DNA of 40,669 nt from Candidatus Aenigmatarchaeota archaeon (GTDB lineage: Archaea; Aenigmatarchaeota; Aenigmatarchaeia; GW2011-AR5), in contig JAGVVU010000009.1 of assembly GCA_018304605.1 (NCBI GenBank), forward strand, positions 1-40,669, in the 5' to 3' direction. Position 1 is the first letter of the stretch, and each line of letters opens with the position of its first letter. The position numbers and the translations under genes were made by a program. Below are positions 16,386 through 33,172 of this stretch, one piece after another. The notes under the pieces were generated by a model. That model had not been told where the DNA came from and ran no database searches. It saw only the letters and a list, made by a program, of their open reading frames with translations.

Positions 16386-16811
16386 TTACTTGAGCGACTT
16401 CTGCTTCTTTCCTGTCCTTATCGCTTCTAGCGAAACATCATTGACCTTGATCACCGCGTATTTCACGCCGCCCATGCTGCCGACGGAGCCGCCCTGGCTG
16501 CCGCCTATGCCCTCGATTACGACCTGGTCGTGCTCCGAGACGTGGTTGATCGCGCCTGTTCTCGGCACGTGCGCGGTCACCTGCTTTCCGTTCTTGATGA
16601 GCCTTACGCGCACGCACTTTATCAGGCCGGAGTGGGGCTGCTTTTGCTCCACGACTCGCTTCTCCAGCACGATGCCTTTTGCCTGTGGAGCGCCCTCCAT
16701 AGGGTCTTTTTTCTTCTTTATCTGCAGAACGCGATTCCTATATTTAATCTGCTTCCACTTGTATCTCTTCCTGTCCTTTTTCAGTTTCCTTGCTGCGAAT
16801 TCTCCTGCCAT
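16386..16811 (-). CDS. rps12: 30S ribosomal protein S12 (uS12)
   Basis: [28 protein letters not shown]...[49 protein letters not shown]. Confidence 0.96.
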
Positions 16812-16852
16812 TATCAATCCCTTTCTTTCAGACCCTGCCTTCAATATTATCT

Positions 16853-17016
16853 TAGATTCATTGAAAACTGCCATCTTCAGATGGCAGATGAAACACAATG
16901 AATCTGGGATCCCATCTTCCAACACAAGAATGAGCAAAGCTCATTCCGTGCAGGATGGCTCTTCGAGCCATCCTTGCAAACCCACGACTTTAGTCGTGGG
17001 ATATAAGGAAGATGTG
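16853..17016. repeat. Nested multi-hairpin element, copy A
   Basis: AGATTCATT(16854-16862)/AATGAATCT(16897-16905) enclosing one hairpin, then CATCTTCC(16913-16920)/GGAAGATG(17007-17014) enclosing three hairpins. Confidence 0.85.
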
Positions 17017-17140
17017 ATTTTACTTTCCTAATTTGAAAGATAAACTATAAAAGCGAATTTTTATCTTTGCGAATGCCAGTGAGCAAATTATAATAATTCT
17101 TTTTTGATTGAGATTTTTTCTTTTGAAGAAAAAAGCTCAC

Positions 17141-17545
17141 TTATTTCACCTTGAGTTCTTCCATGTCGAACAGCCGCTGCAGGAACTTGTTTATTATTTT
17201 TATGTTCTTTCCGCCCTTGCCTATCACCTTTGCCTTGTCGTTCGGCTTTATCTTGACGAATACAGTCTTCTCCTTCACGGAGAATTCCTGCACGCCCGGT
17301 ATTATGTTCTTTATGAACTCCTCAAGGCCCTCCGAATACTCGAAGACCTTTATGCTCTTCTTGAAGACACGCTCGGCGTTCTTTATCTTCGAGCCGTTCT
17401 TTCCGACGGTGGAGCCGTACTGTCCCTGCGCTATGACGAAGTATATCTCGTCACCCTCGCTTATCGCGTCAACGACAGAAGAACCAGTCAGATTCTGGAA
17501 TAGGCTTATTGACTGAATTGTATTCTGGTCAAGCGTTACTTTCAT
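17141..17545 (-). CDS. nusA: NusA-like KH-domain transcription factor
   Basis: IYFVIAQGQYGSTVGKNGSKIKNAERVFKKSIKVFEYS...NDKAKVIGKGGKNIKIINKFL. Confidence 0.93.
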   Translation of the reverse strand: MKVTLDQNTIQSISLFQNLTGSSVVDAISEGDEIYFVIAQGQYGSTVGKNGSKIKNAERVFKKSIKVFEYSEGLEEFIKNIIPGVQEFSVKEKTVFVKIKPNDKAKVIGKGGKNIKIINKFLQRLFDMEELKVK

Positions 17546-28017: not shown

Positions 28018-28100
28018 CCCTTTTCTTTTTGCAAAAGAAAAGCCAAAGTTGCACGACGCTAAAGCGTCAGTCACTGGCGGAAAAGAAAACATATTATCCT

Positions 28101-28430
28101 AGAATGCATTGAATACTGCGGTCTTTAGACCGCAGATGAAACTCAATGCATTCTGGATGCCATGTTCCCAGATACCCCATGGCTTTAGCCATGGGTTATA
28201 AGGAACATATCATCTTAGATTCATTGAAAACACACGGCTTTAGCCGTGTGATGTGGGAAAAGCTTTGCTTTTCCTGCACAGAAAGACTTTCAGTCTTTCT
28301 TGTGAAACATAATGAATCTGGGATCCCATCTTCCAACACAGGAAGGAACGAAGTTCCTTCCGTGCAGGATGGCTCTTTGAGCCATCCTTGCAAACCCACG
28401 ACTTTAGTCGTGGGATATAAGGAAGATGTG
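28101..28430. repeat. Nested multi-hairpin elements, copies B1 (28101-28208) and B2 (28215-28430)
   Basis: B1: AGAATGCATTGA/TCAATGCATTCT and ATGTTCC/GGAACAT; B2: AGATTCATT/AATGAATCT and CATCTTCC/GGAAGATG, each enclosing hairpins. Confidence 0.88.
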
Positions 28431-28499
28431 ATTGTGGGCTCACTGACGTTCGCAGGGCAGAGCGAACCAAAATTATAATAGGTTCTTTTTCCCTTACAT

Positions 28500-28550
28500 G
28501 CAGAAACGCAGTTTCTGCTGCACAGCAAGAGCTTGACTCTTGCTTGTGAG
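28500..28550. repeat. Two additional tandem hairpins after element B2
   Basis: GCAGAAAC-GCA-GTTTCTGC and GCAAGAG-CTTGA-CTCTTGC. Confidence 0.8.
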
Positions 28551-31544: not shown

Positions 31545-31577
31545 AAATATCTGCTAAGTATAGAGGCAAAGACGATT

Positions 31578-31672
31578 TATAGTTGACCCAGAAAAGAATC
31601 TGGACATGTTCTGGGTCAACTTATAGCGCTCAAGTAAGTATAATATCCAAATTATTTACTTGGAGCACTATA
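31578..31672. repeat. TATAG palindrome array 3 (two modules)
   Basis: GTTGACCCAGAA..TTCTGGGTCAAC and AGCGCTCAAGTAA..TTACTTGGAGCACT with TATAG/CTATA flanks. Confidence 0.88.
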
Positions 31673-32491
31673 AACCTTCCTTATTTTCGCCACGAAAAAT
31701 CCGCCTGTATTGTTATGGAACGGGTATATGCGCATGCATCTCTCGAGCCGTGGATCGTACTCTTTGCCTTCCCATGAAGTCAGTCCGTTTGCGTGGTTTA
31801 TCTCAACATCAATTCCGTCCAATTCTGCATCTTTGTTCTTTTTCAGCAAAGTATCAATTACATCTTCGTTTTCCTCGGGCCCGAAGGTGCACGTTGAATA
31901 GACGAGCGTCCCGCCTTTTTTCAATATTTCAAATGCATGCAGTACAAGTTTTTTTTGCTTCTTCGCCAGCAGTTTGATTCGTTTTTCCGACCAGTGCTCG
32001 AAGATCTTGTCGCGCTTGTTCACCATTCCTTCGCCGCTGCACGGCGCATCGAGCAGGATTTTGTCAAACTCGCCATCGATCTTGCGCCCGGACTTGTTGA
32101 TCACGTCAGCGCTAAGTCCGTACTTGTTCACTACCCAGCTAAGGCGCTTTACCCTGAACCTGCTTATGTCATTGGCAGTGATATGCGCCTCGTTGTGCGT
32201 CATGAAGGAAAGGATGAACGTCTTTGTTCCGGGCGCGGCGCACATGTCAAGTATCTTGTCGCCGCTCCTTGGTTCTAGCGCAAGACACGGCACGAGCGAT
32301 ACGGGGTCAAAGATGAATGCATCTTTCCTGTCAAAATCATCAGGAACATAATATGCACACCCACACCACGGGACTTTTTCCAGGCTCATGGGTTTTCTGG
32401 AAAGCATGCACTTTCTTGTTCTGCCCTCGTAGATATTCGCATTCATCCCGAGCTTTTGCAAGCTCTGCCCGAGTTTCTCTGGTATTCGCAT
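31652..32491 (-). CDS. NSUN/NOL1-type RNA m5C methyltransferase
   Basis: MCAAPGTKTFILSFM...LLDAPCSGEGMVNK...YSTCTFGPEENEDVI. Confidence 0.92.
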   Translation of the reverse strand: MRIPEKLGQSLQKLGMNANIYEGRTRKCMLSRKPMSLEKVPWCGCAYYVPDDFDRKDAFIFDPVSLVPCLALEPRSGDKILDMCAAPGTKTFILSFMTHNEAHITANDISRFRVKRLSWVVNKYGLSADVINKSGRKIDGEFDKILLDAPCSGEGMVNKRDKIFEHWSEKRIKLLAKKQKKLVLHAFEILKKGGTLVYSTCTFGPEENEDVIDTLLKKNKDAELDGIDVEINHANGLTSWEGKEYDPRLERCMRIYPFHNNTGGFFVAKIRKVYSAPSK

Positions 32492-32820: not shown

Positions 32821-33128
32821 TATAGCTGACCAACTTAATATTCAAGTATTACACAAGTTGGTCACATATAGTAAACCAAGTTATAATATCCGGGTTATTT
32901 ACTGGGTTAACTATAACTATAAACACGCTAGTGAAATCGGAAATATATGGATGATGGATTTAGCGACCAGACACATTGCTATAGGTTTCACGTAGGTAAA
33001 GATCTTGATCATTTTGATTTCCCCGGATCAGTTATAGCTCTACAAGGAAACAATCTGGATATATTACTTCCTTGTGAGCTATCTGTGAACCCACAAACAT
33101 GTCCGGATTCTTTTGTGGGTTCACTATA
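32821..33128. repeat. TATAG palindrome array 4 (at least four clear modules plus a degenerate middle)
   Basis: Modules 32821-32870, 32867-32915, 33033-33083, 33080-33128. Confidence 0.85.
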
Positions 33129-33172
33129 AGGCAAGAACTGTCTAGGAGATAATTTCTTTCAGATAAGGGGAC

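Follow-up and report, generated by a model that had tools for sequence, protein, structure and literature searches.

Palindrome-associated transposable elements (PATEs) of Haloquadratum walsbyi are short, transposase-free elements with subterminal palindromes and no target duplication; core-deleted versions that consist only of the termini occur, and small mobile repeats (SMR-A) have inserted into the palindromes (PMC3119063). In the IS200/IS605 family, including IS608 and ISDra2, two direct top-strand hairpins each have a tetranucleotide 5' of the foot, short T-rich sites lie at both ends, and the element is joined 3' of its target, which is not duplicated (PMC5934647, PMC6006769). REP/BIME/REPIN sequences are hairpins scattered between genes, and a Y1 enzyme, TnpA-REP or RAYT, is believed to mobilize them in trans (PMC8266576, PMC6006769). 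Short, potentially mobile double-hairpin elements have been described from the intergenic DNA of fungal mitochondria (Allomyces and fission yeasts; PMC10085805).

The small genomes of DPANN archaea have a name for being streamlined, but the Aenigmatarchaeota family considered here is rich in palindromic mobile repeats, which have inserted even within the RNA polymerase/ribosomal operon. No account of such elements in Aenigmarchaeota was found among open papers. The window, that is, the whole 40,669-nt stretch analyzed (C42, a contig from an archaeal assembly of 972 kb with 82.6% completeness and 4% contamination), holds one of these repeats, copy A, in that operon. The PATEs are its closest counterparts in kind, since all of the PATE features listed above recur in the nested element: palindromes lie near both termini, terminal inverted repeats are lacking (only ATC/GAT is inverted at the ends), the target is not duplicated except possibly as a 2-bp AT, and the targeting oligonucleotide is retained on the left. 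It differs from PATEs in its outer stems, which reach to the centre, and in the massive covariation of its stems; full PATE membership hinges on a parent insertion sequence (IS) with the same ends, which was not found in the family. With IS200/IS605 the nested element shares direct hairpins, foot tetranucleotides, T-rich ends, and insertion 3' of the target, but it has no internal tnpA or tnpB, its target is T-N-A-T, and canonical IS200/IS605 ends have no outer stems around their hairpins. Like REP/REPIN sequences it consists of dispersed hairpins with a putative Y1 enzyme in trans, although its hairpins are direct rather than inverted, the foot is AAA instead of GTAG or GTGG, and the local TnpA does not score as a RAYT. 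The fungal elements are organellar, and enclosing outer stems were not described for them (PMC10085805).

Copy A and the hairpin elements of the window

Copy A occupies 16849 to 17018 (covariance-model score 89.7 bits, E 1e-16) on the plus strand, to which its parts, the copies B1 and B2, and the stand-alone twin hairpin described below are also assigned. It lies in the spacer between nusA and rps12, both on the minus strand (rps12 ATG at 16811, nusA stop at 17141). The sequence-only reading had placed a nested-hairpin element here, and folding agreed with it: as single-stranded DNA the copy reached -48 kcal/mol, against -17.8 kcal/mol in shuffles (z = -10.7). Each inner hairpin lies within an outer stem joining an element end to the centre; the ends thus pair with the centre and not with each other, as seen in the fold of copy A and in the covariation of the family. 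The left unit (16849 to 16910) is formed by an outer stem, ATCTTAGATTCATTG/CAATGAATCTGGGAT (16849 to 16863 with 16896 to 16910; covariation in 14 of 15 pairs), around inner hairpin 1, CTGCCATCTTCAGATGGCAG (16868 to 16887). In the right unit (16913 to 17014), recognized by covariation and folding, the outer stem CATCTTCC/GGAAGATG (16913 to 16920 with 17007 to 17014) surrounds an insert and inner hairpin 2, CCCACGACTTTAGTCGTGGG (16981 to 17000). Both inner hairpins are inverted repeats, preceded immediately by AAA (hairpin 1, in a guide-like position) or CAAA (hairpin 2), and almost every one of 83 copies has AAA directly 5' of the two feet. The left border is the target motif TTAT (16847 to 16850), directly 3' of which the element is inserted, and the right border is the terminal TGAT (17015 to 17018), the GAT of which pairs with the central ATC (16909 to 16911).

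The near-identity of copy A to a second copy, B2, was confirmed (94% over 131 nt, with 28303 to 28433), as was the exchange of one hairpin with both arms changed, GAATGAGC-aaa-GCTCATTC at 16928 to 16946 in A and GGAAGGAAC-gaa-GTTCCTTCC at 28341 to 28361 in B2; such double changes turned out to be genome-wide. What the sequence-only reading had missed is that the exchanged hairpin is part of another element, inserted in the nested one. Because minimal nested copies read CCAACAAACCC, without the 52-nt twin hairpin, copy A is, by sequence comparison, a composite that carries a distinct twin-hairpin mobile element (16925 to 16976, with hairpins at 16928 to 16946 and 16952 to 16974) between duplicated CA dinucleotides at 16923 to 16924 and 16977 to 16978. 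The copy is accordingly 170 nt long with the insert and about 116 nt without it. B2 (28212 to 28432) contains two twin-hairpin inserts and lies in tandem with B1 (28096 to 28213; 113.7 bits), a nested element of another subfamily (ATCC...TCAT), the two sharing a terminal AT.

The same twin hairpin occurs elsewhere flanked by TA or CA/TG, both alone and within other repeats, with zero occurrences in reversed-sequence or other-motif controls. A stand-alone copy lies at 28500 to 28544 (flank TG, centre CA), and further ones occur in a related genome, G003 (e.g., C1:34022 and C2:69916). Insertion duplicates TA or CA, as in empty GAGCTATCTGTG versus occupied GAGCTA-CAAG...CTTG-TATCTG. In all classifiable cases but one, the dinucleotide at the centre equals the flanking one read as its reverse complement (flank/centre/flank TA/TA/TA, CA/TG/CA, and TG/CA/TG), although the independent states behind this rule number just two, TA and CA/TG. 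At two other loci of the genome of copy A (L039, C36:10.7 kb; L040, C47:4.5 kb), hairpin pairs are inserted in the loop of inner hairpin 2 and resemble the SMR-A insertions into PATE palindromes.

A third dispersed family, about 96 bp long (TTATAGCTC..GAGCTATCTGTGAACCC..GGGTTCACTATAA), has two covarying hairpins and TA at both ends and the centre; G003 has over 30 copies, and several more lie in the window (33026 to 33140, 31577 to 31673, and 1506 to 1565). All three families follow a common plan, in which one dinucleotide stands at both ends, its complement at the centre, and a hairpin unit on either side of the centre. We regard it as a speculative and rather unlikely extension that they form one class, in which a central guide would pair with both ends and the target and the enzyme, given that no Y1 transposase was detected in several element-rich genomes, might be other than the known Y1 type. 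At 1368 to 1432 of the window, a 21-bp unit (AATTATCAACTCTTTTGTCTA) is perfectly repeated in tandem, three times in all.

Distribution, exact junctions, and target

A search for further copies and target-site signatures, as suggested by the sequence-only reading, yielded both. BLAST returned 36 matches to the nested element in its own genome, and a covariance model made from 19 minimal copies gave 69 matches at no fewer than 36 loci. Among 11 other genomes of the family searched, nine had 3 to 64 covariance-model matches (64 in G011, 48 in G007, 33 in G003, and fewer in the others), and none were found in G001, of the same genus, or in G008. The element-bearing relatives are Candidatus Aenigmatarchaeota, including GW2011_AR5. 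Of eight order-level outgroups, seven had no covariance-model match and the eighth had a single weak one. The nested elements are about 116 to 182 nt long, too short to encode a transposase, and copies at separate sites in G011 are up to 100% identical. Two contigs of the assembly that holds copy A, C59 and C62, are 98 to 99% identical to contig C2 of G003, far above the identity of the other contigs (about 70 to 90%, mostly 75 to 80%), so that the two copies on them may be foreign to the bin; for the contigs, contamination or a recent transfer is probable.

Since intergenic regions at about 75 to 80% identity were too diverged for whole-genome alignment to be usable, empty sites were sought by joined-flank searches, with AT counted once. 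Joined flanks recreated uninterrupted sites at five independent and exact occupied/empty junctions. The copy at C36:3832 in the genome of copy A interrupts a MazG-like open reading frame (ORF) that is intact in its G003 orthologue; the occupied site G011:C4:309357 has an empty counterpart in G016, that at G007:C5:160691 has an empty paralogue, and the copy on contig C30 lies in another repeat with nine empty paralogues. The copy at G003:C1:397472 sits in a further dispersed repeat whose paralogues are empty. Other gene-breaking insertions affect a HAD-like gene, a racemase-like gene, and an ORF in G011. These results show that the nested element is dispersed and mobile and that insertion is exact, directly 3' of T-N-A-T, duplicating nothing beyond possibly AT.

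Of 78 copies, 76 have T at -2 in the left flank, so that the junction there reads T-N-A-T. Nearly every copy also terminates in T-N-A-T on the right, and AT is present at both ends of every copy. The right-terminal N pairs with a central ATN' in three states (ATC/TGAT, ATG/TCAT, and ATA/TTAT), with one exception in 74. Target-site duplication in the flanks was not above chance as a set, a 2-bp AT duplication being indistinguishable from zero. Two longer apparent duplications, of 8 bp (TACCACTT, in G017) and 6 bp, were likewise set aside as not above chance.

The sequence-only reading had held that absence of the element from this operon in close relatives with no sign of excision, together with lack of a transcript, would count against it. 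The first part was found: the nusA-rps12 spacer of same-genus G001 (L091) is 49 nt long and empty, which refutes a conserved operon function and fits a recent insertion. In other genera, G010 and G011, other hairpin elements unrelated to copy A fill this spacer (L092 and L093), and so the nusA-rps12 junction seems to be a repeated landing place. No match to rps12 or nusA was obtained in G003 or G006, although both assemblies comprise few contigs.

Covariation and competing explanations

In an alignment of 88 distinct copies fitted to the covariance model, with which an independent MAFFT alignment of 19 copies was concordant, double changes were observed in 39 of 41 pairs, and the covariation score was 0.519, compared with 0.163 in shuffled alignments and at most 0.09 when the pairing was slid. 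G.T combinations made up 1.5% of paired cells once the two invariant T.G pairs of the left foot were set aside. Wobble pairs are usually far commoner in structured RNAs. Strong covariation alone is no proof of RNA, and the near absence of G.U pairs tells DNA from RNA; near-pure Watson-Crick pairing combined with double changes therefore favours a DNA structure. The paired-arm change first noticed in copy A holds genome-wide, but it indicates DNA palindromes rather than an RNA function. We conclude that the fold matters as DNA, or that template switching keeps the palindromes perfect, or both.

A role in operon mRNAs as a structured RNA or a cis-regulatory element, such as attenuation between nusA and rps12 or processing there, would account for the strong covariation, the stable fold, and the intergenic position in a core operon, yet we consider it very improbable in view of the scarcity of wobble pairs, the empty spacer of G001, and host genes that are unrelated from copy to copy and sometimes broken by the insertion. 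Moreover, an Rfam search gave no match at the gathering score in this region and otherwise only 5S rRNA; the best match below threshold, a Rickettsia rpsL leader (E 0.75), was set aside as chance. Only slightly better placed, and still improbable, is spread without transposition, in which hairpin-primed template switching and gene conversion would create and homogenize the copies. Palindromes that stay perfect while their sequences alter, stems and hairpins swapped as modules, and inverted loops (13 CTAAAG versus 86 CTTTAG), which suggest that template switching does occur, speak for such a process, but clean, exact-ended insertions into unique coding sequence and other repeats, together with the fixed T-N-A-T target, do not fit it.

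If the nested element were a true miniature inverted-repeat transposable element (MITE), mobilized in double-stranded form by another transposase or recombinase that duplicates AT or uses it as a crossover core, this would explain why AT is found at either end of every copy and why tandem B1 and B2 share one, and it would suit the clear 2-bp TA or CA flanks of the twin hairpin and the element-rich genomes in which Y1 was not detected. We nevertheless judge this origin unlikely, although less so than the two preceding ones: the terminal inverted repeats by which such elements are recognized are absent beyond ATC/GAT, the N of the right terminus changes in step with the centre, and the hairpins are direct, their CTTYAG loops lying on the same strand in 104 cases versus 14 inverted. 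(The GC skew of G003 was too flat for element orientation to be read against replication.) Direct hairpins, the foot tetranucleotide, T-rich ends, and duplication-free insertion 3' of the target point instead to an IS200/IS605-type route. We consider it probable, with considerable room for doubt, that copy A belongs to the PATE-like mobile DNAs derived from IS200/IS605, being non-autonomous and moved through a single strand by a transposase in trans. On the best reading, the nested outer stems are what is new relative to PATEs, and the element is otherwise PATE-like.

Predicted movement and candidate transposases

In the IS200/IS605-derived route, a Y1 HUH transposase (TnpA) acting in trans would bind the folded top strand of single-stranded DNA; the centre and the A-rich tetranucleotides would serve as guides that bring the T-N-A-T sites of both ends into the active site, and the element would be excised and then joined 3' of a new T-N-A-T. 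After a change in one arm, Watson-Crick pairing would be restored because folding is needed for movement, because template switching copies the arm, or for both reasons. Copy A would later have gained the smaller twin-hairpin element in its right unit; its presence in the rpo/ribosomal operon would be a lineage-specific insertion, and any transcription of it passive. From its position the copy would be co-transcribed with the operon genes, as the sequence-only reading had predicted. The natural re-pairing between ends and centre makes guide-paired transposition of single-stranded DNA, the action of an enzyme in trans, and the upkeep of palindromes directly testable.

Candidate enzymes are patchily distributed. 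The genome of copy A has one TnpA, on contig C30, in which HLH and Tyr motifs are visible; its matches include IS200/IS605 transposases of solved structure and the IS200 model of NCBI, and it scores as IS200/IS605, not as RAYT. This TnpA was rejected as a parent IS, since the nested copy near it is a complete element that has inserted into a different repeat. A core-deleted, terminal-only copy of the element adjoins an IS200/IS605 TnpA gene that retains HLH and Tyr. Y1 transposases were also present in G002, G010, and G016, and G011 has C-terminal TnpA fragments at three contig ends, suggesting a multicopy IS lost in assembly. None was detected in element-rich G003, G006, and G007 (2 to 10 contigs, 87 to 90% complete), and the TnpA-bearing ISs of the family seem to prefer TTTAA over T-N-A-T, which is why the mobilizing enzyme is put forward as an inference. 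The hairpins of these ISs (CCACCG...CGGTGG) resemble inner hairpin 2 in some genomes, but their apparent target and ends differ from those of the element. An origin from TnpB or its reRNA was discarded, as no TnpB was found in the genome of copy A and TnpB is patchy in the family, not tracking the element. In G002, a TnpA 65% identical to that on C30 is encoded on contig C35 (L086), and a different nested hairpin (CATGAAAGTAG..CTACTTTCATG) lies upstream of it.
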